From: Micromonospora sp. MW-13
GTDB taxonomy: Bacteria > Actinomycetota > Actinomycetes > Mycobacteriales > Micromonosporaceae
Reading direction: 5' to 3'
Assembly: GCF_003434305.1 (NCBI RefSeq)
Contig: NZ_QKKX01000035.1
Span: 1 to 64,000, forward strand
DNA length: 64,000 bases
This document shows positions 9,847-47,344 of the stretch, in pieces. Both the position numbers and the translations under genes were made by a program. The notes under the pieces were generated by a model that did not search any database, was not told where the DNA came from, and saw only the letters and a program-made list of their open reading frames with translations. The number at the start of each line of letters is the position of its first letter. Position 1 is the first letter of the stretch.

Positions 9847-11007
9847 TCAGCCCAGCCCCGCCCATTCCTGGTCGATGACCCGCCCGTCGGTTGCCTCGAT
9901 CGCCGCCGCGTACACCTCCAGCACCCGGCGGGCGACCACCGGCCAGTCGAAGTGCGCCACCACCTGGTCCCCGCACGCGGTCAGCGCGGCCCGCCGCGCC
10001 GGGTCGTCCAGCAGCCCGACCAGGGCCGCCCGCAGCGCCACCGCGTCCCCGGTGGGGAAGAGCAGCCCGGCCCGGCCGCCGTCGAGCACCCGGCGGAACG
10101 CGTCCAGGTCGCTGGCCACCACCGTGGTGCCGGCGGCGAGGGCCTCGGTGAGGATCATCCCGAACGACTCCCCCCCGGTGTTCGGGGCCACGTAGAGGTG
10201 GACGCTGCGTAGCATGCGCGCCTTGTCCTCCTCGGAGACCAGGCCGAGGAAGGTGACCCGGTCGCGCAGCTCGGCGGGAAACCGGTCGAACAGGTCGTCC
10301 GGGTCGCCCGGCCCGGCCACCAGCAGCCGCAGGCCCGGGCGGGAGCGGGCCAGCTCGACGAAGGCGTCGCGCAGGATCGGGAAGCCCTTGCGGGCCTCGG
10401 TGAACCGGCCGAGGAAGCCGAGCGTGCCGCCCTCCCCGAGGTCGCACTCCCCCGGCCAGCCGGGCAGCGGCGTCGCGTGGCTGAACTTGGCCACGGTGAC
10501 GCCGTTGGGGATCTCCACCGCCCCACCGTCCATGTGCTCGACCTGCACCTTGCGGGCCAGGGCGCTGACCGCGATCCGGGCGGTGATCCGCTCCAGCACG
10601 ATCTGGAGCACGCCCTGCGCGGCGGCGAGCACCCGGGACCGGGTCATCGCGGTGTGGAAGGTGGCCACCACCGGGCCCCGGGCGGAGAGCACGGCCAGCA
10701 TCGACACGCTCATCGTCAGCGGCTCGTGCACGTGCAGCACGTCGAAGTCGCCCCGCGTGATCCACCGCCGGACCCGGGCGGTGGAGACCGGGCCGAACGC
10801 GATCCGGGCCACCGACCCGTTGTACGGCAGCGGCAGGGCCCGGCCCGCCGGCACCACGTACGGCGGGAGCGGGGAGTCCTCGTCGGCGGGCGCGAACACG
10901 CTCACCTCGTGCCCGAGCCCGATCAACGCCTCCGCCAGGTCCATCACGTGGTTCTGCACCCCGCCGGGCACGTCGAAGGAGTACGGGCACACGATGCCGA
11001 TCCGCAT
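9847..11007 (-). CDS. pimA: Phosphatidylinositol alpha-mannosyltransferase
   Basis: 386 residues, GT-B fold, GT4 family. Transfers the first mannose from GDP-mannose to phosphatidylinositol at the inner membrane. N-terminus MRIGIVCPYSFDVPGGVQNH with the glycine loop; C-terminal donor site GESFGMILTEALAAGT with the EX7E glutamates. GGAGGGG lies upstream of ATG 11007. Immediately follows pgsA and an acyltransferase as in Mycobacterium (Rv2612c-Rv2610c), which supports the PimA rather than a generic glycosyltransferase call. Confidence 0.95.
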   Translation of the reverse strand: MRIGIVCPYSFDVPGGVQNHVMDLAEALIGLGHEVSVFAPADEDSPLPPYVVPAGRALPLPYNGSVARIAFGPVSTARVRRWITRGDFDVLHVHEPLTMSVSMLAVLSARGPVVATFHTAMTRSRVLAAAQGVLQIVLERITARIAVSALARKVQVEHMDGGAVEIPNGVTVAKFSHATPLPGWPGECDLGEGGTLGFLGRFTEARKGFPILRDAFVELARSRPGLRLLVAGPGDPDDLFDRFPAELRDRVTFLGLVSEEDKARMLRSVHLYVAPNTGGESFGMILTEALAAGTTVVASDLDAFRRVLDGGRAGLLFPTGDAVALRAALVGLLDDPARRAALTACGDQVVAHFDWPVVARRVLEVYAAAIEATDGRVIDQEWAGLG

Positions 11008-11024
11008 GTGAGCGCCCCTCCGCC

Positions 11025-11975
11025 TCAGACCGTTCCGGTGGCGGCCGGCGGCGTGGAGACGGGTCCGGGCCCGCCGTCGCCGGTGCCGCGCTGGTCCAGC
11101 CACATCCGTTGCAACATGTGCCAGTCTTCCGGATGCCGGGCGATGCCCGCCGCCAGACCGTCGGCAATCCGCTGGGTCAGCTCCCGGACCCGCTGGTCCA
11201 GCGGCCCGCTGTCCTCCCCGGGCACGGGCAGCGGGCCCTCGATCGAGGCGCACGCCGCGTCCGGTTCGTACCACAACGAGGCGACGTAGAGCGGTGCCCC
11301 GGTGCGCAGCGCCAGCAGCGCCGGTCCGGCCGGCATCCGGGTCCGCGCGCCGAAGAAGTCGACCTCGATCCCCCGGGCGGAGAGGTCCCGGTCGGCCAGC
11401 AGCGGCACCACCGTGCCGGCGCGCAGCCGGTCCACCAGCACGTCGAACGCGGGCCGCTCGCCGCCGTGGGTGGGCAGGATCTCCATGCCCAGCCCCCGCC
11501 GGAAGGCAAGGAAACGCTGGTAGACCCCCTCGGGCTTGAGCCGCTCGGCGACCGTGGTGATCGGCCAGCCGGTGGCCGCCACCCAGGCCCCGGCGGCGTC
11601 CCAGTTGCCGGCGTGCGGCAGCGCCACCACCGCGCCCCGGCCGGCGGCGACGTCGGCGGCGAGCAGGTCGACCCCCTCGGGGGCGAGCCGGAACCCGGCC
11701 AGGAGCTGCCCCCGGCTCAGCGCCGGCAGCCGGAACGCCTCCATCCAGTACCGGGCGTAGGAGCGCAGGCCGCGCCGGAGCAGGTCGTCCAGCTCGGCCT
11801 CGGGCAGCTCCGGGCCGACCACCCGGCGCAGGTTGGCGCGCAGTCGGGCCGTACCCGCGCCGCCGGAGCGGTGGGCGCGGTCGGCGCCCGCCCGGAAGGC
11901 CGCGGCGACCAGGGGCCGGGGCAGTGCGCGGACCAGGCGCCAGCCGGCGACGTAGCCGAGCTCGGTGAGGTTCAC
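11025..11975 (-). CDS. Phosphatidylinositol mannoside acyltransferase (PatA-like)
   Basis: 316 residues of the LpxL/HtrB lysophospholipid acyltransferase fold. The catalytic HX4D motif is HAGNWD (His121, Asp126). Other conserved pieces are YARYWMEAFRLP and a C-terminal HPEDWHMLQRMW. It acylates the mannose of PIM1/PIM2 from acyl-CoA at the cytoplasmic face. Start GTG 11975 overlaps the pgsA stop by four nt (GTGA), and the stop lies 17 nt before pimA, so the three genes are coupled. Orthologue of Rv2611c by position. Confidence 0.93.
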   Translation of the reverse strand: MNLTELGYVAGWRLVRALPRPLVAAAFRAGADRAHRSGGAGTARLRANLRRVVGPELPEAELDDLLRRGLRSYARYWMEAFRLPALSRGQLLAGFRLAPEGVDLLAADVAAGRGAVVALPHAGNWDAAGAWVAATGWPITTVAERLKPEGVYQRFLAFRRGLGMEILPTHGGERPAFDVLVDRLRAGTVVPLLADRDLSARGIEVDFFGARTRMPAGPALLALRTGAPLYVASLWYEPDAACASIEGPLPVPGEDSGPLDQRVRELTQRIADGLAAGIARHPEDWHMLQRMWLDQRGTGDGGPGPVSTPPAATGTV

Positions 11976-12604
11976 CCCTGCGGCCCGTCCGGGGCGGCCT
12001 CGCGGGCCTGCCGGTACACGTGGGCGATCCGCTGGCCCACGGTGAAGATCGAGACGGCGGCCAGCAGCCAGAGCGCGATCTGCAGGGCGTACGGGACGCC
12101 GAAGCCGGTGAGCAGGCCGCCGACGCCGACGATGAGCAGCCGCTCGGTGCGCTCGGCGATGCCCACGTTGCAGGTCATCCCGAGCCCCTCGGCGCGGGCC
12201 TTGACGTAGGAGACCAGCCCGCCGGCGGCCAGGCAGAGCAGCGCGGCGGCGACCCCGCCGTGGTCGCCCTCGGTGGCCAGCCAGTACGCGACCGCGCCGA
12301 AGACGGCGCTGTCGGCGACCCGGTCCATGCTTGAGTCGAGGAACGCCCCGAATCTCGTCGAGCCGCCGCTCATCCGGGCCATCGTCCCGTCGAGCAGGTC
12401 GGTCAGCGCGAAGACCGTGACGATGAGGGCGCCGGCGACCAGATGGCCGCGGGCGCCGAAGCCGAGCGCCCCGACCAGCACCCCGAGGGTGCCGGCGACG
12501 GTGACGACGTTGGGGGACACGCCCGCGCGGAGCAGGCCGCGCGCGATCGGCTCGACGATGCGGGTCATCCCCGCCCGGACTGACACTTGGAAGATCTTCG
12601 CCAT
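11972..12604 (-). CDS. pgsA: Phosphatidylinositol phosphate synthase
   Basis: 210 residues, CDP-alcohol phosphatidyltransferase. Contains the full signature DX2DGX2ARX8GX3DX3D beginning at Asp69, with the active-site aspartates intact. About five to six membrane segments. In actinobacteria this enzyme joins inositol 3-phosphate to CDP-diacylglycerol, giving the phospholipid that PimA mannosylates. First gene of the pgsA-acyltransferase-pimA set here. A phosphatidylglycerophosphate synthase is the alternative, but the neighbours decide for the inositol enzyme. Confidence 0.94.
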   Translation of the reverse strand: MAKIFQVSVRAGMTRIVEPIARGLLRAGVSPNVVTVAGTLGVLVGALGFGARGHLVAGALIVTVFALTDLLDGTMARMSGGSTRFGAFLDSSMDRVADSAVFGAVAYWLATEGDHGGVAAALLCLAAGGLVSYVKARAEGLGMTCNVGIAERTERLLIVGVGGLLTGFGVPYALQIALWLLAAVSIFTVGQRIAHVYRQAREAAPDGPQG

Positions 12605-36813: not shown

Positions 36814-37797
36814 TCAGGCTTCCTCCAGCAGTTCCAGCACCCGCCGCTCCGCCTCCGCCCGGGGCGCGCCCGGCTCCACCGGGGCGACCACCCCGTCGTG
36901 GAACAGGTCGACCACGCGCGGGTCCACGTAGGAGGTCCGGGCCACGGTGGCGGTGTTGCCGAGCAGCTCGGCGACCTCGCGCATCACCGCCGCCACCGCC
37001 CGCCTGCGGGCCGTCGCGGACCGGGCCGGCCCGTGGGTGGCCAGCTCGGTGGCCGCCAGCACGGTGGCGTGCCAGGTGCGGAAGTCCTTCGCGGTCATCT
37101 CGCCGCCGCTGGCGGCGCGCAGGTACTCGTTGACCTCGTCGGCGCGCACGTCCCGCCAGTCCCGGCCGTCCCAGTAGCCGAACAACCGCTCGGCCCGGCG
37201 GCGCTGGCGGCGCAGGTTGGTCAGCACCCGGCACAGCTCCGGGTCCTCGATCCGCCGCACCTGGTCGATGCCGCCCTTGGCGGGGAACTCGAACACCACG
37301 CAGCCCTGCCGGCTGCGGGCGTGCTCGGGGCGCAGCGTGGCGACCCCGAAGGTGGCGTCGTCGCCGACCGCGTACTGGTCGCTACCGACCCGGAACATTC
37401 CCATGTCGAGCAGGCAGGCGACCGTGGCGAGCACCCGGTCCCGGTTCAGCCCCCGGCCGGACAGGTCACATCGCACCCGCTCGCGCAGCACCGGGAGCCG
37501 GTGGGCGACCTCCAGCACGTGGTCGAACTTCGCCTCGTCCCGGTTGCGCCGCCACTGCGGGTGGTAGAGGTACTGCTTGCGGCCGGCCGCGTCGATCCCG
37601 GTGGCCTGGATGTGCCCGTTGTGGTGCGGCGAGATCCAGACGTCCCGCCAGGCCGGCGGGATCACCAGGTCCCGCAGCCGGGGCAGCTCGCCGGAGTCGC
37701 GGACCGGCTCGCCCCTCGGGTCGAGGAACGTCCAACCTCTGCCGCTTCGCCGGCGGCCGTACCCCGGCCCAGCCGGATCGCTACGCCGTAACCGCAC
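36814..37797 (-). CDS. DNA topoisomerase IB
   Basis: 327 residues, poxvirus-type bacterial topoisomerase IB that relaxes supercoils through a 3'-phosphotyrosine. N-terminal GRGWTFLDPRG and LRDLVIPPAWRDVWISPHHNGHIQATGIDAAGRKQYLYHPQW (split across sheets) are typical. Catalytic residues: Arg in RVGSDQYA-type region, the Lys/Arg in TAKDFRTWHATV, and Tyr290 (TSYVDPRV). Start GTG 37797 overlaps the preceding glycosyltransferase by 17 nt, so it is the distal cistron of the heptose operon, an odd location for this enzyme. Confidence 0.93.
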   Translation of the reverse strand: MRLRRSDPAGPGYGRRRSGRGWTFLDPRGEPVRDSGELPRLRDLVIPPAWRDVWISPHHNGHIQATGIDAAGRKQYLYHPQWRRNRDEAKFDHVLEVAHRLPVLRERVRCDLSGRGLNRDRVLATVACLLDMGMFRVGSDQYAVGDDATFGVATLRPEHARSRQGCVVFEFPAKGGIDQVRRIEDPELCRVLTNLRRQRRRAERLFGYWDGRDWRDVRADEVNEYLRAASGGEMTAKDFRTWHATVLAATELATHGPARSATARRRAVAAVMREVAELLGNTATVARTSYVDPRVVDLFHDGVVAPVEPGAPRAEAERRVLELLEEA

Positions 37798-38788
37798 CGG
37801 AGACCCGCACCGCCCGTTCCGCGTCGTCCACGGCCGCCAGCACCTCGTCGAGGCCGACGGCCGACAGTGTCGAATCGGTTGTTACCCCGTCGTACCCGGG
37901 CCAATCGCCCCGCGCTCCGGGTGGCCGGGCGGCGGGCCGGTGGGGCCGGTGGGGCCGGGCACCGTCGCCGTGCCAGAGCACCCGGTGCCACGGGCGGTCC
38001 GGCGGCGGCCCCCACCGCGCCGGCGGGACGGGACCGAAGAGCACCACCGACGCGGTGCCGTACCCGGTGGCGAGGTGCGCGACGCCGGTGTCCCCGCTGA
38101 CCACCAGGCGGGCACTGGCGACGAGGGCGGCGAGGTCGCCGAGGTCCGTCCGGCCGGCGAGCACGGCGTCCGGCGCCAGCCCACCGTGGTACGCCACCCA
38201 CCCGGCCAGTTCCCGCTCGCCCGCCGATCCGGTGACCACCACCCGGTGCCCCCGGCCGGTCAGCTCCCGGGCCAGTGCCGCGAACCGCCGGGCCGGCCAG
38301 CGCTTGGCCGGGACCTTGCTGCCGGGGTGCACCACCGTCACCCCGGTCGGGATGCCGCCGGGGGCGGGACGGCGCAGGGCGAGGTCGGTGCGGTCGGCGG
38401 GGACGCCGTACCAGCCGAGCAGTCGGCACCACCGGTCGATCTCGTGCTCGTCGGCCCGCCAGTCGGGGCCGTCGGCGTGGCCGGCGTCGGGACTGGCGAA
38501 GGCGAGCAGCCGGCCGGGGCGGGTGGCGGCCAGCACGCGGTGCGACCGGGGGCCGCATCCGTGCAGGTTGACCGCCAGCCCGGGCGGCGGGCCGGGCCAC
38601 CCCAGGTTCCCCAGGCCGTCCGCCGGCACCAGGCGGTCGACGCCGCCGACCAGGTCGACCAGGGGGGCCAGCCAGCGCGGCGCGGCCAGCGCCAGCTCCC
38701 GGTCGGGGTACGCGGCGCGCAGGGCGCGCAGCGCCGGCACCCCGGTGGCGAGGTCGCCGACGCCGAGCGCCCGGAGCACGAGGATCAC
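37781..38788 (-). CDS. GT9 family glycosyltransferase (heptosyltransferase-like)
   Basis: 335 residues. GT-B fold. N-terminal VLRALGVGDLATGVPALRALRAA is the ADP-heptose:LPS heptosyltransferase motif; the C-terminal half has VTVVHPGSKVPAKRWP, VVVTGSAGERELA and SGDTGVAHLATGYGTASVVLFGP, the nucleotide-sugar binding region of GT9. GTG 38788 overlaps the SDR stop (GTGA). Presumably transfers heptose from ADP-heptose made by the same operon to an unknown acceptor. Confidence 0.92.
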   Translation of the reverse strand: MILVLRALGVGDLATGVPALRALRAAYPDRELALAAPRWLAPLVDLVGGVDRLVPADGLGNLGWPGPPPGLAVNLHGCGPRSHRVLAATRPGRLLAFASPDAGHADGPDWRADEHEIDRWCRLLGWYGVPADRTDLALRRPAPGGIPTGVTVVHPGSKVPAKRWPARRFAALARELTGRGHRVVVTGSAGERELAGWVAYHGGLAPDAVLAGRTDLGDLAALVASARLVVSGDTGVAHLATGYGTASVVLFGPVPPARWGPPPDRPWHRVLWHGDGARPHRPHRPAARPPGARGDWPGYDGVTTDSTLSAVGLDEVLAAVDDAERAVRVSGAVTA

Positions 38789-39486
38789 GGGTACGACGAC
38801 TCCTGCTCGGCGCAGACGACCAGCTCGCGGACGGTGCTGCCGGGCGGCTGGGACAGGGCGAACATGACCGCGGCGGCGGTGTCGGCGGGGTCGTTGAGGT
38901 TGGCGTCGGGGCCGGGCCGGTACTGCGCGTCCCGGTCGTCGAAGAAGGCGGTGCGCATCCCGCCGGGGACGAGCAGGGTGACGCCGACCGCGCCGGCCAG
39001 CTCGGCGGCGAGGGCGCGGGTGAAGCCGACCACGCCGAACTTCGCGGCGCAGTACGCGGTGGCGTCGCTGACGGCCTTGACGCCGAGGGTGGAGGCGACC
39101 GTGACGACGTTGCCCCGGGACTCCTCCAGCCAGGGCAGGGCGGCCCGGATCACCGCCGCGGTGGCGAGCAGGTCGACGGCGACGATCCGGTCCCAGGTCT
39201 GCCCGGGCACGTCGGCGAGCCGGCCGGGCACGTCGATGCCGGCGGCGGTGACCACGGCGTCGAGGCCCCCGGAGCGTTCGGCGAGCCGCCGGGTGGCCGC
39301 CTCGGCGGCCCGGGTGTCGGCCAGGTCGCACTCGACCCACGGCACCCCGTCGGCCGGGGCGTCGCGGTCCAGCACCAGCGGCCGGCCGCCGGCCCGGGCC
39401 ACGGCCGTCACCACGGCCGCCCCCAACCCGCTCGACCCGCCCGTGACCAGGACGGTCGGCCCCGTCCCCACAGTGTTGCCGGTCAT
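38785..39486 (-). CDS. Classical short-chain dehydrogenase
   Basis: 233 residues. NAD(P) loop TGGSSGLG (about 15-22), VTAAGIDVPG, active Ser in VTVASTLG and YCAAK. It is a classical SDR, shorter than and unlike HldD, the extended SDR that epimerises ADP-heptose. C-terminal VRELVVCAEQESSYP. Couples to both neighbours by four-nt overlaps. Likely modifies the sugar or glycan, but the substrate cannot be assigned. Confidence 0.92.
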   Translation of the reverse strand: MTGNTVGTGPTVLVTGGSSGLGAAVVTAVARAGGRPLVLDRDAPADGVPWVECDLADTRAAEAATRRLAERSGGLDAVVTAAGIDVPGRLADVPGQTWDRIVAVDLLATAAVIRAALPWLEESRGNVVTVASTLGVKAVSDATAYCAAKFGVVGFTRALAAELAGAVGVTLLVPGGMRTAFFDDRDAQYRPGPDANLNDPADTAAAVMFALSQPPGSTVRELVVCAEQESSYP

Positions 39487-40982
39487 CGTGCCCCCTTCGC
39501 CGTCGCGCCATCCACGCCCACCGCGACGCCTGGCGGCGGCCCGGGCACCCGGTCGCCGGACCCGGTCGTCCCGCCGCCGGCGCGGGCGGCGGCGATCATG
39601 TCGGTGGTGGAGCGCCCGTCGAGGTACGGCACGACCACCGTGTGCCCGCCCCAGCGGCCCAGCAGCTCCGCCTCGGGCAGCCCCGGCTCGCCGCCGGTGG
39701 CGTAGTCGCCGCCCTTCACCCAGATGTCGGGACGCAGCCAGGTCAGGGCCGCCTGCGGGGTGGGCTCGTCGAAGACCAGCACCGCGTCGACGCAGCCCAG
39801 TGCCGCCAGCAGCCGACCGCGGTCGCCCTGCGGCACCACCGGCCGGTCCGGCCCCTTCAGCCCCGCCACGCTGGCGTCGGAGTTGAGGCAGACGACCAGG
39901 CAGTCACCGAGCTGGCGGGCCGCCTCCAGGGTGGCCACGTGCCCGGCGTGCAGCAGGTCGAAGCACCCGCCGGTGGCGACGACCGTGCCGCCGGCCGCGC
40001 GGACCGCGGCGACCACCCCGGCGGCGGCGCCCACCCCGACCCGGTCGCCCCCGCCGCGGCGGGACCCGGTCAGCGAAGCCGTCCGGGCCGGCGGCGGCAG
40101 GGCCGCGGCCACTCCCCCGGCCGCGACGTACGCCGACGCCTCGGTGACCGCCGCCTGCACCGCCTCGGAGACCAGCGCGCCCCGGGACAGGGCGATGCTG
40201 GCGGTCGCGGCGAACCGGTCGCCCGCGCCGCAGGTGTCCCCCTCGGCGCTGGCCGGGGCGGGCACCACCAGCGGCGTCGACCCCGCGTGGCAGAGCAGCG
40301 CGCCGTCGCCGCCCAGGGTGACGGTGACCGCGCCGGCCCGCCAGCGCCGGCGCAGTTCCTGCGCGCCCCTCGACGCGGTGGCCAGCCGGGACGCGCCCGG
40401 CCCGGTCTTCACCAGATCGCGCACCTCCGACTCGTTCGGGGTGGCCAGATGCACCCCCGGCACCGCCGCCGGCCCTCGGGGGTGCGGGTCCCACACCACG
40501 GGCGCGCGGGTCGCCGCGAGCGCGCAGCGCAGGGCCGGCTGTCGGGCCACCCCCCGGCCGTAGTCGCTGACCAGCACGGCGGACGCGGAGGCGAGCAACC
40601 GCAGGGCGGCGTCGCTCGGCTCGCCGGGCTCCCCGGCCGACCCGCCCCGGTCGTGCCGCAGCAGCACCCGGCCCCGGGCGTGCAGCCGGATCTTCTCCGG
40701 GGTGGCGCCGCGCAGCGGCAGCGCGTACACCTGCACCCCGGCCGCGGCGAGCAGCGTGCTCAGCCGGGCCCCGCCCTCGTCGTCGGCGAGCGCGGTCACC
40801 AGGGCCACCTCGGCGCCCAGCGCGGCGGCGAAGACCGCCGCCAGGCCGGCGCCGCCGGGCCGGTCCACGGCCGTCGACTCGTCGAGCACCGGCACCGGGG
40901 AGTCCGGACAGAGCCGGTTCACCACCCCCTCGACGTCCCGGTCGAGCAGGATGTCACCGACCACCACCACGGGTCCCGCCAT
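39483..40982 (-). CDS. hldE: Bifunctional heptose 7-phosphate kinase / heptose 1-phosphate adenylyltransferase
   Basis: 499 residues with two domains. N-terminal ribokinase fold (1 to about 300): VVGDILLDRDVEGVVNRLCPDSPVPVLDE, GGAGLAAVFAA and catalytic DTCGAGDRF (about 244-252). C-terminal nucleotidyltransferase (about 335-470): GCFDLLHAGHVATLEAARQLGD, GDRGRLLAALGCVDAVLVFDEPTP and WVKGGDYA. Makes ADP-D-glycero-beta-D-manno-heptose with GmhA and GmhB. Starts 12 nt after gmhA. Matches HldE domain order, unlike the GDP-heptose HddA/HddC route known from mycobacteria. Confidence 0.95.
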   Translation of the reverse strand: MAGPVVVVGDILLDRDVEGVVNRLCPDSPVPVLDESTAVDRPGGAGLAAVFAAALGAEVALVTALADDEGGARLSTLLAAAGVQVYALPLRGATPEKIRLHARGRVLLRHDRGGSAGEPGEPSDAALRLLASASAVLVSDYGRGVARQPALRCALAATRAPVVWDPHPRGPAAVPGVHLATPNESEVRDLVKTGPGASRLATASRGAQELRRRWRAGAVTVTLGGDGALLCHAGSTPLVVPAPASAEGDTCGAGDRFAATASIALSRGALVSEAVQAAVTEASAYVAAGGVAAALPPPARTASLTGSRRGGGDRVGVGAAAGVVAAVRAAGGTVVATGGCFDLLHAGHVATLEAARQLGDCLVVCLNSDASVAGLKGPDRPVVPQGDRGRLLAALGCVDAVLVFDEPTPQAALTWLRPDIWVKGGDYATGGEPGLPEAELLGRWGGHTVVVPYLDGRSTTDMIAAARAGGGTTGSGDRVPGPPPGVAVGVDGATAKGAR

Positions 40983-40994
40983 CAGCTCGCCTCC

Positions 40995-41735
40995 TCAGCC
41001 CGTCTCGACCTGCCGGTCGGCCTCGCCGTCCAGCACCACCTCGACCCCGGCCCGCACCGGCCGGTCCGGCCCACCGGACGGAGCCGCCGCCGGTTCCGCG
41101 CCGCCCGGGCCGCGCGCGCCGGCCACCGCGAGGGCGGCGGGCAGCACCCGGTCGACGTACTCGCAGAGCACGTGGACGGAGACCAGGTGCAGCTCCTGGA
41201 CCACCTGGCTGTCGGGGGAGTCGATGGCGAGGACGTCGTGGCAGGCGTCGGCGAGGGGGTTGGGGGTGGGGCCGGTGAGGGCCCAGCAGAGCAGGCCGGT
41301 CTCGCGGGCGGTGTGGGCGGCGGTCAGGAGATTGGTGCTGGTGCCGCTGGTGGACATGAGCAGGAGGATGTCGTCCCGCCGGCCGTGGGCGCGGACCTGG
41401 CGGGCGAAGGTGTGGTCGTAGCCGTAGTCGTTGGCGATGGCGGTGAGGGCGGAGGTCTCGGCGTGCAGGGCGATGGCGGAGAGGGGCTGGCGGTCGTCGC
41501 GGAGCTTGCCGACGAGTTCGGCGGTGAGGTGCTGGGCCTCGGCGGCGCTGCCGCCGTTGCCGGCCACCAGCAACCGGCCGCCCGCGGCGAGCCGGTGCGC
41601 CAACTCCCCGCCCCACCGGGCCAGCAGCTCCTCCGACCGGCGGTACGGCAGCAGGGCCGCGGCCAGGCTGGCCAGGTGCCCGTCGAGCACCGACGGGGCG
41701 GCCGGGCCGGCGGGACCGGGCGGCGCGGCGGCCAT
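40995..41735 (-). CDS. gmhA: Sedoheptulose 7-phosphate isomerase
   Basis: 246 residues. SIS-domain enzyme forming D-glycero-D-manno-heptose 7-phosphate. Motifs: GNGGSAAEAQHLTAELVGK (59-77), TSALTAIANDYGYDHTFARQV, STSGTSTNLLTAA and VQELHLVSVHVLCEYVD, which carries the active-site Glu/His residues. The last 35 residues are a Gly/Pro-rich tail not seen in most GmhA. ATG 41735 overlaps the preceding TGA by one nt (TGATG). Confidence 0.95.
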   Translation of the reverse strand: MAAAPPGPAGPAAPSVLDGHLASLAAALLPYRRSEELLARWGGELAHRLAAGGRLLVAGNGGSAAEAQHLTAELVGKLRDDRQPLSAIALHAETSALTAIANDYGYDHTFARQVRAHGRRDDILLLMSTSGTSTNLLTAAHTARETGLLCWALTGPTPNPLADACHDVLAIDSPDSQVVQELHLVSVHVLCEYVDRVLPAALAVAGARGPGGAEPAAAPSGGPDRPVRAGVEVVLDGEADRQVETG

Positions 41736-42949
41736 CAGGCGACCACCCGGGTGGGCCGGCGCACCGCCGCCACCTGGCCGTACACGTCGGCCAGCCGCTC
41801 GGCCGTGGCGGCCCAGGAGTAGCTGCGCCGGGCCCGGTCGCGGGCCGCCCCGGCGTAGGAGAACCGCCGGATCCGGTCGTCGAGCAGGCGGCGGATCGCG
41901 GCGCCCAGCGCGCGCGGGTCCCGGGCCGGCACCAGGTCGCCGGTCACCCCGTCGAGCACGGTGTCGGTCAGCCCGCCGACGGCCGTGCCGACCACGGGCA
42001 CGCCGCACGCCATCGCCTCCAGCGGGGTCAGCCCGAACGGCTCGTACCAGGGGGCGGCGACCAGCACGTCGGCGGAGCGGTACCAGCGGCCCATCTCCTC
42101 GCGGGGCACCGCCCCGACCAGCGTCACCCGGTCGTCCACCCCGCAGGACTGGGCGAGGGCCCGCAGCCGGCGGGCGTGCGGGTCGGTCTCCAGCAGCCCC
42201 TCCGGCGGGCCGCCCACCACCACGCACTCGGCGTCCGGCACCAGCGGCATCGCGCGGATCACGTCCTGGAAGCCCTTGCGCTCCACCAGGCGGCCCACGG
42301 TGAGGATGCGGCGCCCCGGGCCCCGCGCGGCGGCCGGGCCGAGCGGCGTGAACGTGCCGAGGTTGACCCCGGACGGGACGACGGTGATCCGCGACCGGGG
42401 CACCCCGAGCCGGACCAGCTCGCCGACCTCGTCCTGGCACTGGGCGACCACCCGGTCGACAGCCCGGCCCAGCTCCCGCTCGTGACCGATCCGGCGGGGC
42501 GGGCTGGTGTCCTGGACGCCCTGGTGGCGGCGCTTCACCGCGCCGAGGGCGTGGTACGTCTGCACCACCGGCACCCCGGTCTGCCGGCCGGCGGCCAGCG
42601 CGGCCAGGCCGCTCATCCAGAAGTGGGCATGGATCACCTCGGGCGTCCAGTCCCCGGCGCGCCACCGGTCGACCAGCCAGCGGCCGAACGCCCGCATGTG
42701 CGGCAGCAGCGCGTCCTTGGCGACCGGCTCGGCCGGCCCGGCCGGCACGTGCACCACGTCGTACCCGTCCGGGCTGCGGACCGTCACCGGCAGGTCCACC
42801 GCGTCCCGGCGGGTGTACACCCGCACGTCGTGACCGGCGGCGGCGAGCGCGGCGGAAAGCTCCGCGACATGCGTGTTCTGGCCGCCGGCGTCCTCGCCGC
42901 CGAGGACGGCGAGCGGGCTGGCGTGCTCCGAGATCATCGCGATGCGCAT
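41735..42949 (-). CDS. GT4 family glycosyltransferase
   Basis: 404 residues, GT-B. N-terminal MRIAMISEHASPLAVLGGEDAGGQNTHVAEL is the sucrose-synthase/MshA-like loop; donor-site WYEPFGLTPLEAMACGVPVVGT has the EX7E glutamates. Overlaps the upstream glycosyltransferase by 16 nt. Retaining transferase using an NDP-sugar. Sugar and acceptor unknown; context suggests a heptose-containing glycan. Confidence 0.93.
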   Translation of the reverse strand: MRIAMISEHASPLAVLGGEDAGGQNTHVAELSAALAAAGHDVRVYTRRDAVDLPVTVRSPDGYDVVHVPAGPAEPVAKDALLPHMRAFGRWLVDRWRAGDWTPEVIHAHFWMSGLAALAAGRQTGVPVVQTYHALGAVKRRHQGVQDTSPPRRIGHERELGRAVDRVVAQCQDEVGELVRLGVPRSRITVVPSGVNLGTFTPLGPAAARGPGRRILTVGRLVERKGFQDVIRAMPLVPDAECVVVGGPPEGLLETDPHARRLRALAQSCGVDDRVTLVGAVPREEMGRWYRSADVLVAAPWYEPFGLTPLEAMACGVPVVGTAVGGLTDTVLDGVTGDLVPARDPRALGAAIRRLLDDRIRRFSYAGAARDRARRSYSWAATAERLADVYGQVAAVRRPTRVVA

Positions 42950-43908
42950 ACTTCCTCCTCCAGCAGCCGGTCCCAGTCAGCGAGGAAACGGTCCAGGCCG
43001 TAACGGTCCCGGGCGGCCCGCCGGGCCGCCGTGCCCGCGCGGCGGGCGGCCGACGGGTCGTCGAGGAGCCGGCGGGTCGCCGCCAGCAGGTCGTCGACCC
43101 GGGTGGAGAGCGCGCCGGCCTCCGGCGGCACCGCCACCACCGCCTCGGTGGTGGCCAGCGTGACGACCGGCATGCCGATGGCCATCGCCTCGATCAGGCT
43201 GAGCCCGAGCGAGGTCCACCGGCACAGGTGCAGGTAGGCCCGCCGCCGGGCCAGTTCGGCGTGCATCCGGTCCTGCGGCACGTCGTCGTGGCTGGCGACC
43301 CGGTCGGCGGGCAGCCCCAGCCGGTCGGCGAGCCCGGCGACCCCCATGCCGAAGACGTCCAGCGGGGCGAGGGCGGCGAACCGGGGCAGCAGGTCGGTGC
43401 CGGTGACCCGCCAGCGGCGTACCGGCTCGTTGATGACGACGGCGAGCCGGTCGAGTTCGCCGGTCCACTCGACGTTCGGGGCGACGATGCCGTGCTCGAC
43501 GACGGTGCTGCGGGTGCCGCCGTTGTCCCAGAAGAGCTGGTTGAATCCGGTTACGTGGACGAGCAGCAGGTCGTCGCGGTCGGCCATCGGGTGACGGCTG
43601 TTGGGCACGTCCCCCTTGGGGGTGTTGTGCTCGACGTAGACCGCCGGCACGTCCCGGCCGACCCGGCGGCCGAGCCACTCGGAGGCCAGGTCGAACTCCT
43701 CGGGGCGCTGGAGGATCACCACGTCCACCTCGGCCCCGCGCAGCTCGGCCGGGGTGACCTCGACGGCCCCGTCGGGCCACGGGTAGGTGCGGGCCCGGCC
43801 GAGGCCGTAGGGGCCCCGGTCGGGGGTGACCGGCACCAGGTAGCGGTGCCTGCCGTGCACGAAGGACGTGGCCCAGGAGCCGTGCACGTGCCAGACCAGG
43901 ATGTTCAT
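42934..43908 (-). CDS. GT-B glycosyltransferase, divergent
   Basis: 324 residues. Start MNILVWHVHGSWATSFVHGRH then VVILQRPEEFDLASEWLGR and VYVEHNTPKGDVPNSRHPM are conserved in a poorly studied actinobacterial glycosyltransferase group. C-terminal LCRWTSLGLSLIEAMAIGMPVVTLATTE is a GT4-type donor motif. ATGA overlap (43905-43908) with the GmhB-GT9 stop. No membrane helix; works at the cytoplasmic face. Confidence 0.85.
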   Translation of the reverse strand: MNILVWHVHGSWATSFVHGRHRYLVPVTPDRGPYGLGRARTYPWPDGAVEVTPAELRGAEVDVVILQRPEEFDLASEWLGRRVGRDVPAVYVEHNTPKGDVPNSRHPMADRDDLLLVHVTGFNQLFWDNGGTRSTVVEHGIVAPNVEWTGELDRLAVVINEPVRRWRVTGTDLLPRFAALAPLDVFGMGVAGLADRLGLPADRVASHDDVPQDRMHAELARRRAYLHLCRWTSLGLSLIEAMAIGMPVVTLATTEAVVAVPPEAGALSTRVDDLLAATRRLLDDPSAARRAGTAARRAARDRYGLDRFLADWDRLLEEEVCASR

Positions 43909-45620
43909 CGGCCGCTCCCGCCACCGGCCGGCACGGCGACCGCCGGCGGCCCACCGGCGCCGGCCGCACCGCCGGCACCGGCCGTGACGTCCGCACCCGC
44001 CGTGGCGTCGGCGCGGGCGGCCCCCGTGGTGGGCACGCCGAGGAGCCGGACCGCGGCGAGGACCGCGGCGGGGTCGACCCCGGCGAGGCAGGGGTGCCCG
44101 GCGACCGGGCAGCCCGCCGAGCGGGTGTCGCGGCAGGGCGCGTCGGCGTCGCCGAGGCGGACGGTCGGCACCCGGTAGGGCCCCCACTGCCCGAACGGAA
44201 CGGTGGGGGCGAACAGGCTGACCACGGGGGTGCCGAGCGCGGCGGCGAGGTGGGCGGGGCCGGTGTTGCCGACGACGAGGGCGCCGGCGCCGGCGATGAT
44301 CCCGGCCAGCTCGGCGAGTCCGGTGCGTCCCCCGAGGTCGGTGCCGCCGGCGGCGGCGACCCGGGCGGTCAGTTCCCGTTCGCCGGGCCCGCCGGTGACC
44401 ACCACCCGGTGACCGGCGCCGGCGAGCACCCGGACGATCCGGGCGGCCAGCTCCGCCGGGCAGGCCCGGGCCGAGGCCGACGAGCCGGGGTGCACGACCA
44501 CGTACCCGGGCGGGCCGAGCCGCGACGGCGCGGCCGGCACCGCGTCCCGGCGCAGGCGCAGTCGGGGTTCGTCGTCGGCGGGCAGGGCGTGGCCGGCGGC
44601 GGCGGCCAACGACAGGGCCCGCTCCGGCTCCGGCGCTCCCACCGGGACGCGGTGGCGCACGTCCAGCAGGCTGCCCGGGTAGTCGTCGCTGATCGCGGCG
44701 ATCCGGGGCACCCCGGCCAGCCGCAGCAACAACGCCAGCGGCAGCGGCGACTGGTGGAAACTGGTGAAGATCACCGCCTCGTCGGCCCCCACCGCCGCCA
44801 GCCGCCGCACCAGCCGCCGGGTCCGCTCCGGATCCACCCCGGCCGGCTTCGGATCGATCCACTCCAGGGGCCACTCGACGATCTCGTCCACCCCCGGCAA
44901 CAACCCCGCCGCCGCCCGGCCCCGCGGCCCGCACAACAGCACCACCCGCTCCGCGTGCGCCGCCACCGCCCGGATCCCCGGCCCGGTCACCAGCACGTCC
45001 CCCGCCGAGTCCGAGCGCACCACCAACACCGTCCCCGCCGTGCGCGGCACGGCCGCGACGACGGCGGCCTGCCGGCGCAGGATCTCCTCCACCGCGGCCG
45101 GCAGCGTCGGGGCGGTGTGCGGGGCGGCGGCGACCTCCTCGGCCCGGGTCACCGGCGTCGGCACCAACACCCCGGACGCGCCCGCCGCGAGGGCGGCGGT
45201 CATGTCCCGGCCGATGTCCCCCACCACCACGCAGCGTCCCGGCGTCGTGCCCAGGTCGGCGGCGGCGGCGCGCACCAGCCCCGCCGCCGGCTTACGGCAC
45301 CCGCACCCCGCCCCGTCGTCGTGCGGGCACACCCGCCAGGTGTCGAAGGGGCCGAGCAGCTCCTCGATCCGCGCGTGCACCCGGCCCAGTTGTCCGGCGG
45401 TGAAGCAGCCCCGCGCCAGGCCCGACTGGTTCGTCACCACCCCCAGCCGCAGCCCCGCCGCCCGCAACCGGTCAAGGGCCTCCCGCGCCCCCGGCATCGG
45501 CCGCACCTTCTCCGGATCCCCGTTGTACGGCACGTCCTCGACCAGGGTCCCGTCCCGGTCGAGCAGCACCGCGTCGAACAGGACGCCGCCGGACCGGCCC
45601 CGGCCAGCACCCGGGTCCAC
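43905..45620 (-). CDS. Fused heptose 1,7-bisphosphate phosphatase and GT9 heptosyltransferase
   Basis: 571 residues if started at GTG 45620. N-terminal HAD-IIIA domain (about 15-185): DRDGT (Asp21, Asp23), VVTNQSGLARG, the zinc loop CPHDDGAGCGCRKP (Cys98, His100, Cys106, Cys108) and VVVGDIGRDMTAALAAG identify GmhB. C-terminal GT9 domain (about 194-530): VLVVRSDSAGDVLVTGPGI, VVVHPGSSASARACP, VVVTGGPGEREL and VVGNTGPAHLAAALGTPVVSLFAPT. The final 30 residues are Ala/Gly/Pro-rich. Domain separation is clear and the frame is uninterrupted, so the fusion looks genuine. The start is uncertain because the frame stays open to 45785. Confidence 0.9.
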   Translation of the reverse strand: MDPGAGRGRSGGVLFDAVLLDRDGTLVEDVPYNGDPEKVRPMPGAREALDRLRAAGLRLGVVTNQSGLARGCFTAGQLGRVHARIEELLGPFDTWRVCPHDDGAGCGCRKPAAGLVRAAAADLGTTPGRCVVVGDIGRDMTAALAAGASGVLVPTPVTRAEEVAAAPHTAPTLPAAVEEILRRQAAVVAAVPRTAGTVLVVRSDSAGDVLVTGPGIRAVAAHAERVVLLCGPRGRAAAGLLPGVDEIVEWPLEWIDPKPAGVDPERTRRLVRRLAAVGADEAVIFTSFHQSPLPLALLLRLAGVPRIAAISDDYPGSLLDVRHRVPVGAPEPERALSLAAAAGHALPADDEPRLRLRRDAVPAAPSRLGPPGYVVVHPGSSASARACPAELAARIVRVLAGAGHRVVVTGGPGERELTARVAAAGGTDLGGRTGLAELAGIIAGAGALVVGNTGPAHLAAALGTPVVSLFAPTVPFGQWGPYRVPTVRLGDADAPCRDTRSAGCPVAGHPCLAGVDPAAVLAAVRLLGVPTTGAARADATAGADVTAGAGGAAGAGGPPAVAVPAGGGSGR

Positions 45621-45823
45621 CCGGGCTGACCTGCGCCGATCCGGCTCCAACTGGTCCCGTCGCACGGGCGGCGGGTTCCCTGCGCCCTGAGGAGTAAACG
45701 TCGTCCCCGGGCGCGGTAGCGCCGCTCGTGCGACGGACCAGCCCTCGCGCCGCCCTCCGGGCCGGCGGCCGTCGCGGGCGCTCACCTTCGGCGGCGGGCC
45801 GGACGCGACGGGACGTCCGTCGG

Positions 45824-45854
45824 CTCCGGTGCGGCGATACCCGCCGCACCGGAG
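45824..45854. promoter_or_regulatory. 12-bp inverted repeat in the heptose/SRPBCC divergent region
   Basis: CTCCGGTGCGGC and complement (45824-45835, 45843-45854), 7-nt loop. Lies upstream of both the leftward operon and the rightward SRPBCC gene. Confidence 0.45.
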
Positions 45855-45856
45855 AA

Positions 45857-45879
45857 GCTAACCCGCTCGGGTCGTTAGC
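45857..45879. promoter_or_regulatory. GCTAAC/GTTAGC palindrome in the divergent region
   Basis: GCTAACCCG facing CGGGT-C-GTTAGC, two nt after the preceding repeat. Size fits a repressor operator; it lies 29 nt before GTG 45908. Confidence 0.45.
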
Positions 45880-45907
45880 CCACCTCGGACCCGGGTACGG
45901 CAGGGCG

Positions 45908-46354
45908 GTGGCGACTGTGGATGAAGTGATCGAGGCACCCCCGCAGCAGGTCTTCGACGTCCTCGCGGACGGCTGGACGTACAGCGACTGGGTGGTGGGC
46001 ACGGTGCACGTGCGCGACGTCGACGACGCCTGGCCCCGGGTCGGCGCCCGGCTGCACCACAAGGCCGGGCCCTGGCCGTTCTCCCTCCAGGACACCTCGA
46101 CCGTGCTGGCCTGCGAGCCGCCCCGCAGGCTGGTGCTCCGGGCCGGGCTGTGGCCGGCCGGCGAGGCGACCGTGGTGTTCACCCTCGAACCGGCCGGCGA
46201 GAACGCCACCCTGGTCCGCATCGGCGAGGACTTCGCCGCCGGCCCGCTGCGCTGGGTCCGGAACAAGCTCAACGACCTGGTGCTGCACCAGCGCAACCGG
46301 GAGACGCTGCGCCGGCTCGCCGACATCGCGACCCGGCAGAAGGCGGGCCGGTGA
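45908..46354 (+). CDS. SRPBCC (START/polyketide cyclase-like) protein
   Basis: 148 residues. Starts VATVDEVIEAPPQQVFDVLADGWTYSDWVVGT, the N-terminal strand-helix of SRPBCC proteins, and ends with the long C-terminal helix RWVRNKLNDLVLHQRNRETLRRLADIA. Binds a hydrophobic ligand in the family; ligand here unknown. GTG 45908 chosen; GTG 45917 possible. Often found near phytoene-desaturase-like oxidoreductases, as here. Confidence 0.85.
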   Translation: MATVDEVIEAPPQQVFDVLADGWTYSDWVVGTVHVRDVDDAWPRVGARLHHKAGPWPFSLQDTSTVLACEPPRRLVLRAGLWPAGEATVVFTLEPAGENATLVRIGEDFAAGPLRWVRNKLNDLVLHQRNRETLRRLADIATRQKAGR

Positions 46355-46567: not shown

Positions 46568-47344
46568 ATGTCCGTCATGATCGAACCCGTGCAGTTGCCC
46601 GAGCCGTGGCGGGACGCGCGCCTGACCGTCGTGGTCCCCACCTACAACGAGGCGGGCAACCTGCCGGTGCTGGTCGAGCGGCTCCTCGCGCTGCCGCTGC
46701 CGGGCCTGACGGTGCTGGTCGCCGACGACAACTCGCCGGACGGCACCGGCGAGGTGGCCGACAAGCTGGCCCTCGAACACCCCGACCGGGTGCGGGTGGT
46801 GCACCGGGCCGGCAAGGAAGGGCTCGGCCGGGCGTACGTCGACGGGATCACCCGGGCGCTCGACGGGGGCGCCGAGTACGTGGCGCAGATGGACGCCGAC
46901 CTGTCCCACCCGCCGGAGGCGCTGCCCGGCATGCTCGGGGCGCTGCTGTCCACCCGGGCGGGCGTGGTCATCGGCTCCCGCTACGTCCCCGGCGGCCAGC
47001 TCGACGAGGCGTGGCCGCTGTACCGCCGGGCGCTCAGCGGCTGGGCCAACCTCTACGTGCACACGCTGCTGCGGGTGCGCATCCGGGACCTCACGGCGGG
47101 TTTCAAGATCTGGCAGGCCGACGCGCTGCGGGACATCGGCCTGGACCGGGTGCAGTCGAACGGCTACAGCTTCCAGGTGGAGATGCACTACCTGGCCACG
47201 AAGCTCGGCCACACCATCCTGGAGGTGCCGATCCGCTTCGAGGAGCGCCGCGACGGCGACTCGAAGATGACCACCGCCACCAAGATCGAGAGCGCGCTGA
47301 TGCCGTTCAAGCTGCGCACCCGGCACCGCAACATCGAGCGCTGA
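46568..47344 (+). CDS. Polyprenol monophosphomannose synthase
   Basis: 258 residues, GT2 family, DPM1/Ppm1 catalytic type without an N-acyltransferase extension. TVVVPTYNEAGNLP, VADDNSPDGTGEVAD, QMDADLSHPPE (metal-binding DXD), IGSRYVPGG and RDLTAGFKIWQADALRDIGLDRVQSNGYSFQVEM (split) are typical. Makes polyprenyl-phosphate mannose from GDP-mannose, donor for extracellular mannosylation of lipoglycans and proteins. ATG 46568 or 46577. Confidence 0.93.
   Translation: MSVMIEPVQLPEPWRDARLTVVVPTYNEAGNLPVLVERLLALPLPGLTVLVADDNSPDGTGEVADKLALEHPDRVRVVHRAGKEGLGRAYVDGITRALDGGAEYVAQMDADLSHPPEALPGMLGALLSTRAGVVIGSRYVPGGQLDEAWPLYRRALSGWANLYVHTLLRVRIRDLTAGFKIWQADALRDIGLDRVQSNGYSFQVEMHYLATKLGHTILEVPIRFEERRDGDSKMTTATKIESALMPFKLRTRHRNIER

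Follow-up and report, generated by a model that had tools for sequence, protein, structure and literature searches.

The 64,000-nucleotide stretch of the soil bacterium Micromonospora sp. MW-13 analysed here (the window), which belongs to a genome of 7.09 Mb in 152 contigs, carries seven minus-strand genes that run head to tail from 45665 down to 37781, with adjacent ends overlapping or nearly touching. They encode predicted enzymes for the synthesis of a nucleotide-activated heptose together with several glycosyltransferases (GTs), and counterparts of a number of them are found in the cwg operon of Streptomyces coelicolor. An earlier note on this DNA placed the operon at 36814..45620, and both ends need adjusting: the glycan genes lie from 37781 upward, 36814-37797 encoding a topoisomerase IB, which the note covered in its span but did not mention, and the first gene, although present, has a more probable start at the GTG at 45665, judged from a conserved in-frame GTG block, than at the alternatives 45620 and 45569. 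The genes are as follows.

43905..45665, minus strand: gmhB-GT9 fusion, predicted heptose 1,7-bisphosphate 7-phosphatase joined to a heptosyltransferase, GT9a (PRK08942, 2.7e-32; PF01075, 1.8e-22)
42934..43908, minus strand: GT4b, GT4-like glycosyltransferase, cwgF counterpart and marker of the operon (C-terminal GT4 domain, within a longer frame)
41735..42949, minus strand: GT4a, GT4 glycosyltransferase, cwgG counterpart, kin of MshA and sucrose-phosphate synthase (Glycos_transf_1, 2.8e-36)
40995..41735, minus strand: gmhA, predicted sedoheptulose-7-phosphate isomerase, cwgH counterpart (TIGR00441, 3.4e-44; SIS_2)
39483..40982, minus strand: hldE, predicted bifunctional heptose-7-phosphate kinase and heptose-1-phosphate nucleotidyltransferase, cwgI counterpart (PRK11316, 8e-80; rfaE_dom_I, rfaE_dom_II)
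38785..39486, minus strand: classical short-chain dehydrogenase, SDR (adh_short, 8.2e-35)
37781..38788, minus strand: GT9b, second GT9 heptosyltransferase-type enzyme, cwgJ counterpart (PF01075, 2.9e-25, in the frame 37781-39511)
36814..37797, minus strand: topoisomerase IB, overlapping the end of GT9b (Topoisom_I, 3.9e-30; Top1B_N_bact, 7.6e-23)

The three enzymes of ADP-D,D-heptose synthesis, GmhA, HldE and GmhB, are all present with their motifs, as judged from family, structure and motif matches that stay below the equivalog cut-offs; the motifs of these enzymes and of GT9 were read by the functional roles commonly attached to them. The kinase half of HldE, an enzyme sharing 96% identity with its M. 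rubida counterpart, carries CGAGD and the transferase half CFDLLHAGH; the signature YLDGRSTT is present as well. The GmhB half of the fusion matches solved GmhB relatives, and both DRDGT and the zinc motif CxH..CxC occur in 68 of the 68 related loci with a gmhB match. GmhA matches solved phosphoheptose isomerases, down to 1.7e-39, and aligns with them. GT9b matches the WaaF structure 1psw (1.3e-16) in an alignment that includes the GD motif, while for the GT9 half of the fusion there are weaker matches, to 3tov and the WaaC and WaaF structures. Solved GT4 structures are matched weakly by GT4b, and none of the 25 NCBIfam models displayed for the SDR was both specific and over its cut-off.

Related loci were fetched with HldE in a genome scan, the best 80 of at least 307 confirmed relatives being retained, and the locus counts given here refer to this set. 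All eight domains stand in the same order in 65 of the 80, so the arrangement is not due to chance; together with the single orientation and the touching or overlapping ends, this upholds the claim of the earlier note that GmhA, GmhB, HldE, two GT9 enzymes (one fused to GmhB), two other GT-B transferases (here GT4) and an SDR form one operon. The expectation of the same order in related genomes held for these loci; of the other 15, in which the order is incomplete, most lie on cut contigs, and the gaps include a missing GT4b match (L068), a missing GmhA match (L072) and the lack of an SDR in both Streptomyces loci. GmhB and GT9 form a single frame of at least 520 amino acids in 64 of the 66 non-Streptomyces loci with gmhB, the exceptions being L010 (437 amino acids) and L058 (353 amino acids), and GmhB is separate from GT9 in the two Streptomyces loci (191-192 amino acids).

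These Streptomyces loci (L080 and L084) both read epimerase, carbamoyltransferase, GT2, GmhB, GT9, GT4, GT4, GmhA, HldE, GT9, and the window genes share the gene order with L084 at 51-62% identity, GT4b aligning at 62%. The S. coelicolor cwg gene labels, as given in PMC5839063, where cwg is tentatively assigned to cell-wall glycan synthesis, fit this order, as does the cwgE label according to PMC5882110. The cwg operon (SCO6179-6190) was reported in 2002 by Hong et al., according to citing papers, and is described as a 12-gene operon for a predicted cell-wall glycan that is induced by vancomycin and partly dependent on sigma-E (PMC6767563; also PMC13011467 and PMC3902916). The gene alignments indicate that the window operon is the core of this known operon, with GmhB, GT9, GT4, GT4, GmhA, HldE and GT9 in the same order; given this order and identity, the set of genes is not the undescribed system that had been suspected. 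The differences lie around and within the core: cwg has an epimerase, a carbamoyltransferase and a GT2 before gmhB (cwgA-C), whereas the window has none of these upstream, and in the window GmhB and GT9 are fused, an SDR stands between hldE and GT9b, a topoisomerase IB follows and the promoter motifs are others. A carbamoyltransferase of the type kept in other Micromonospora loci is absent from the whole genome by a search that was positive in 30 of 121 Micromonospora genomes, the front genes cwgA and cwgC having been looked for upstream in the window and not by a separate genome search.

The missing front genes set the window copy apart within its own genus. A carbamoyltransferase is found in 22 of the 80 loci (8 Micromonospora, 11 of an Actinoplanes group, 1 Virgisporangium and 2 Streptomyces), and it is lacking before gmhB in what we call class A, sampled as 44 fetched loci of Micromonospora and Salinispora plus the window. 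The 8 Micromonospora loci that we call class B and the 11 Actinoplanes-group loci have the eight domains ordered as in the window, with GmhB-GT9 mostly fused and the SDR present, but keep the carbamoyltransferase and GT2 in front, both of which class A lacks. In a FastTree tree of HldE, GT4a and GT9b from 67 of the 80 loci and the window, rooted on Streptomyces, class A (45 tips, support 0.958) and class B Micromonospora (12 tips, 1.0) are sisters, with 0.997 support for the two together, and the Actinoplanes group (9 tips, 1.0) branches next outside; L069, L070 and L075, on cut contigs, fall in class B. An aldehyde dehydrogenase gene flanks 42 of the 44 class A loci and all 11 Actinoplanes-group loci with carbamoyltransferase and GT2. 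The topoisomerase IB, probably a neighbour outside the heptose pathway, adjoins 42 of the 44 class A operons and 6 of the 11 Actinoplanes-group operons. The common flanks therefore point to the same chromosomal place with two genes gone in class A, and the simplest account would be a duplication in the Micromonospora lineage followed by loss of both genes in class A. The window copy would then be a derived paralogue without carbamoyltransferase and GT2, a variant that appears to be new here. Among the 121 Micromonospora genomes surveyed, the carbamoyltransferase is found at 88% identity or more in 30, and 24 more match only at 47% or less.

The start of the operon is sharply conserved in class A, and three features mark this region.

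45663..45699, minus strand: GTTTAC-N13-GGGAAC-N9-GTG, putative leaderless promoter with its start codon; 43 of 45 class A sequences, the window among them, match exactly
45838..45862, minus strand: distal GTTAG-N15-GGGTA motif, putative second operon promoter (GTTAG-N13-17-GGGTA in 42 of 44 class A loci)
45874..45897, plus strand: divergent GTTAG-N14-GGGTA motif, putative promoter towards an SRPBCC gene (30 of 44 class A loci)

L022 and L037 have 1-base length changes in the start block with the GTG still in frame. We favour a leaderless promoter at the class A gmhB start because of the fixed frame to the GTG and the geometry of the block, whose core pattern has a single occurrence in the genome against none for the control. 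The class B carbamoyltransferase gene has a motif of similar geometry: in all 8 Micromonospora loci, GTTAG-N13-GGGTA begins at -34 or -35. In the Actinoplanes group the full motif precedes the carbamoyltransferase in 1 of 11 loci and GGGTA at the corresponding place in 11 of 11, the latter being absent from the 2 Streptomyces loci and the 1 Virgisporangium locus. The strict GTTAG/GGGTA pattern occurs four times in the genome against two for the reversed control, and thus marks this region rather than a large regulon. Motifs of this type resemble sites of SigB/SigF-type factors, and the genome encodes two sigma factors over the SigBFG cut-off. In L049 and other class B and Actinoplanes-group loci, a conserved block like GAAGTCGATGATC, perhaps an activator site, lies about 40-60 bases before the carbamoyltransferase start, upstream of the putative promoter. 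A described RNA was also considered for the start region: the upstream area gave ten Rfam matches, all below gathering, and no match reached gathering anywhere in the window, so the conserved start region corresponds to no described RNA. The best upstream match by E-value, mir-2071 (0.0018, 26 of 100 bits), is a perfect 13-base hairpin, CTCCGGTGCGGCG, with a 5-base loop at 45826-45856, in the gap separating the divergent genes, where it shares bases with the distal GGGTA motif; most aligned relatives have not kept it. The mannose-phosphate polyprenol synthase that the earlier note placed just across the divergent region does not stand there: the SRPBCC gene (45926-46354) comes between, and the synthase-like GT2 gene lies at 46568-47344. 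This neighbour is found at 42 of 44 class A loci and at 0 of 11 Actinoplanes-group loci, which speaks against a conserved link to the operon.

Among the Micromonospora genomes, 120 of 121 have the marker GT4b (E up to 1e-30); G101, the only one lacking it, has a carbamoyltransferase of the class B type at 89%. Across the Actinomycetota the marker is present in 31 of 296 genomes (E up to 1e-20). Stretches of at most 16 kb, one from each of 18 of these 31 genomes, contain gmhB in 16 cases, gmhA and hldE in 15 each and a carbamoyltransferase in 14, and in 10 an SDR follows hldE directly; absences may be due to cut ends.

With regard to the sugar, the operon shares its first enzymes and GT9 transferases with the inner-core pathway of Gram-negative lipopolysaccharide (LPS), namely GmhA, HldE, GmhB, HldD, WaaC and WaaF; in contrast to that pathway, Micromonospora lacks an HldD over cut-off and an lpxC match, and has extra GT4 enzymes and an SDR. 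For HldD, which the earlier note proposed to look for elsewhere, TIGR02197 gave 16 matches to SDR proteins in the genome, none over cut-off (best 126 of 274.6 bits), and the donor should therefore remain in the D,D form. No lpxC match was found in the genome, the control matching in 4 of 14 genomes, in agreement with the claim that this organism has no LPS; neither HldD nor lipid A synthesis, the marks of an LPS inner-core pathway, was thus detected. Of the 80 loci, 77 have Arg before STT in the HldE signature and the other 3 have His. Arg at this position, in the motif (F/L)XXGXSTT, is reported to go with nucleoside triphosphate promiscuity (Tang et al. 2024, via PMC11461863), and the window HldE shares the Arg, but has Tyr where that motif, as given there, has F or L. 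The donor is therefore not necessarily ADP-heptose alone, and the nucleotide may be AMP, possibly also CMP or UMP. The product is likely NDP-D-glycero-D-manno-heptose (NDP, nucleoside diphosphate), used by the transferases of the operon.

Taking these observations together, we consider it probable that the window holds the actinobacterial cwg operon in its Micromonospora class A form, building a heptose-containing envelope glycan. The following scheme would fit: (i) the kinase half of HldE would form the 1,7-bisphosphate, from which the GmhB half of the fusion would strip the 7-phosphate; (ii) the second half of HldE would attach the nucleotide; (iii) GT9a, being fused to GmhB, may couple donor synthesis with transfer; (iv) GT9a and GT9b would add heptose and the two GT4 enzymes other sugars; and (v) the glycan would be assembled inside the cell and exported to the envelope. 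Loss of the carbamoyltransferase and GT2 in class A would leave a glycan minus the carbamoyl group and one sugar; as a carbamoyltransferase is assigned to heptose in Pseudomonas LPS cores (PMC8005017), carbamoyl-heptose would, by analogy, be expected in the ancestral glycan but not in that of class A. That ADP-heptose feeds a glycan other than LPS, as had been proposed, agrees with an NDP-heptose pathway encoded beside transferases; a surface glycan seems to us the likeliest product, since vancomycin induces the orthologous cwg operon of S. coelicolor, an operon whose expression depends in part on sigma-E, and the envelope destination is drawn by analogy with that regulation.

Several observations weigh against this reading: (i) the strict NCBIfam equivalog cut-offs were missed by HldE (268.7 of 521 bits, PRK11316), GmhB (111.8 of 178) and GmhA (150.6 of 209.45); (ii) the seven genes include no exporter and no priming enzyme; (iii) no sigma-E-like AAC-N15-18-CGTC occurs in the window upstream region, while such a motif does occur in the Actinoplanes-group locus L064 and, some 249-268 bases upstream and within sequence aligning to the SRPBCC gene, in 7 class A loci; (iv) the published cwg promoter has no match within 3 mismatches in L084 or L080, S. 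coelicolor not being among the loci, so that the absence in (iii) carries little weight; (v) heptose need not depend on the window operon alone, since the same genome has a second heptose-type locus (C26:33420-37257, equal to L098:6421-10258) with a 603-amino-acid HldE, a GT2 and a divergent GT9; and (vi) the literature searched gave no measurement of heptose in actinomycete walls. By titles and abstracts, nothing relevant was found on heptose in Micromonospora or in whole-cell sugars, nor any structure of a Gram-positive ADP-heptose glycan. The C26 HldE has an insert between its kinase parts and a nucleotidyltransferase domain over cut-off, and two further GmhA-like matches, below cut-off, lie on C74.

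Other destinations of the heptose were weighed. It is unlikely that the product is a heptose glycolipid on an inositol or diacylglycerol lipid, akin to phosphatidylinositol mannosides (PIMs): GT4a resembles MshA, an enzyme that uses inositol-phosphate, and PIM genes lie in the same window, but the MshA match is far under its cut-off (244 of 462.5 bits), the best solved relatives of GT4a are 6kih and 3c4q, with the protein named Tll1590 foremost, and the inositol-mannoside genes are 27 kb from the operon. At 9847-12604, genes for a phosphatidylinositol phosphate synthase and a PIM acyltransferase, both over cut-off, and a GT4, which we take from its position to be PimA, are adjacent. A heptosylated small molecule of the septacidin type would suit the lack of an exporter or priming enzyme, and ADP-heptose is reported to feed septacidin in Streptomyces fimbriatus (PMC11461863); we regard it as distinctly improbable, given that an operon in nearly all Micromonospora genomes and in many families is unlike a typical natural-product cluster, that cwg is under envelope-stress control in S. 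coelicolor (PMC6767563) and that no natural-product scaffold gene was seen among the scanned window proteins, which cover part of the window genes, no cluster finder having been run. Least probable of all is heptosylation of cytoplasmic proteins, as by the E. coli autotransporter heptosyltransferase; ADP-heptose is reported to serve protein glycosylation in E. coli (PMC11461863) and export genes are lacking among the seven, but the operon holds no target protein gene and its four transferases, joined in most relatives by GT2 and carbamoyltransferase, point to an oligosaccharide.

Returning to the envelope glycan, a more specific version can be put forward tentatively, at somewhat less than even odds in our judgement: Micromonospora would have two parallel duplicated heptose-glycan operons, class B keeping carbamoyltransferase and GT2, and class A, near-universal and with its own leaderless promoter, having lost both and making a D,D-heptose glycan free of carbamoyl groups. 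Such a glycan would be a Gram-positive counterpart of the LPS inner core, and its donors may include CDP- or UDP-heptose besides ADP-heptose.

To conclude, the gene set is known; what distinguishes it here is a paralogue that is near-universal, has lost genes and is sharply conserved at its start. The literature searched does not describe the glycan itself. No structure is given in the parts of the cwg literature found, where the product is a prediction even now, over 20 years after the first report. The core that is conserved, namely NDP-heptose synthesis, two enzymes each of GT9 and GT4 and often a carbamoyltransferase, points to D,D-heptose, often carbamoylated, and within Micromonospora nature supplies both versions for comparison, one having the carbamoyl and GT2 steps and one lacking them. 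The interest of Gram-positive producers extends past wall chemistry, since the immune receptor ALPK1 is reported to have NDP-heptoses among its agonists (PMC11461863).

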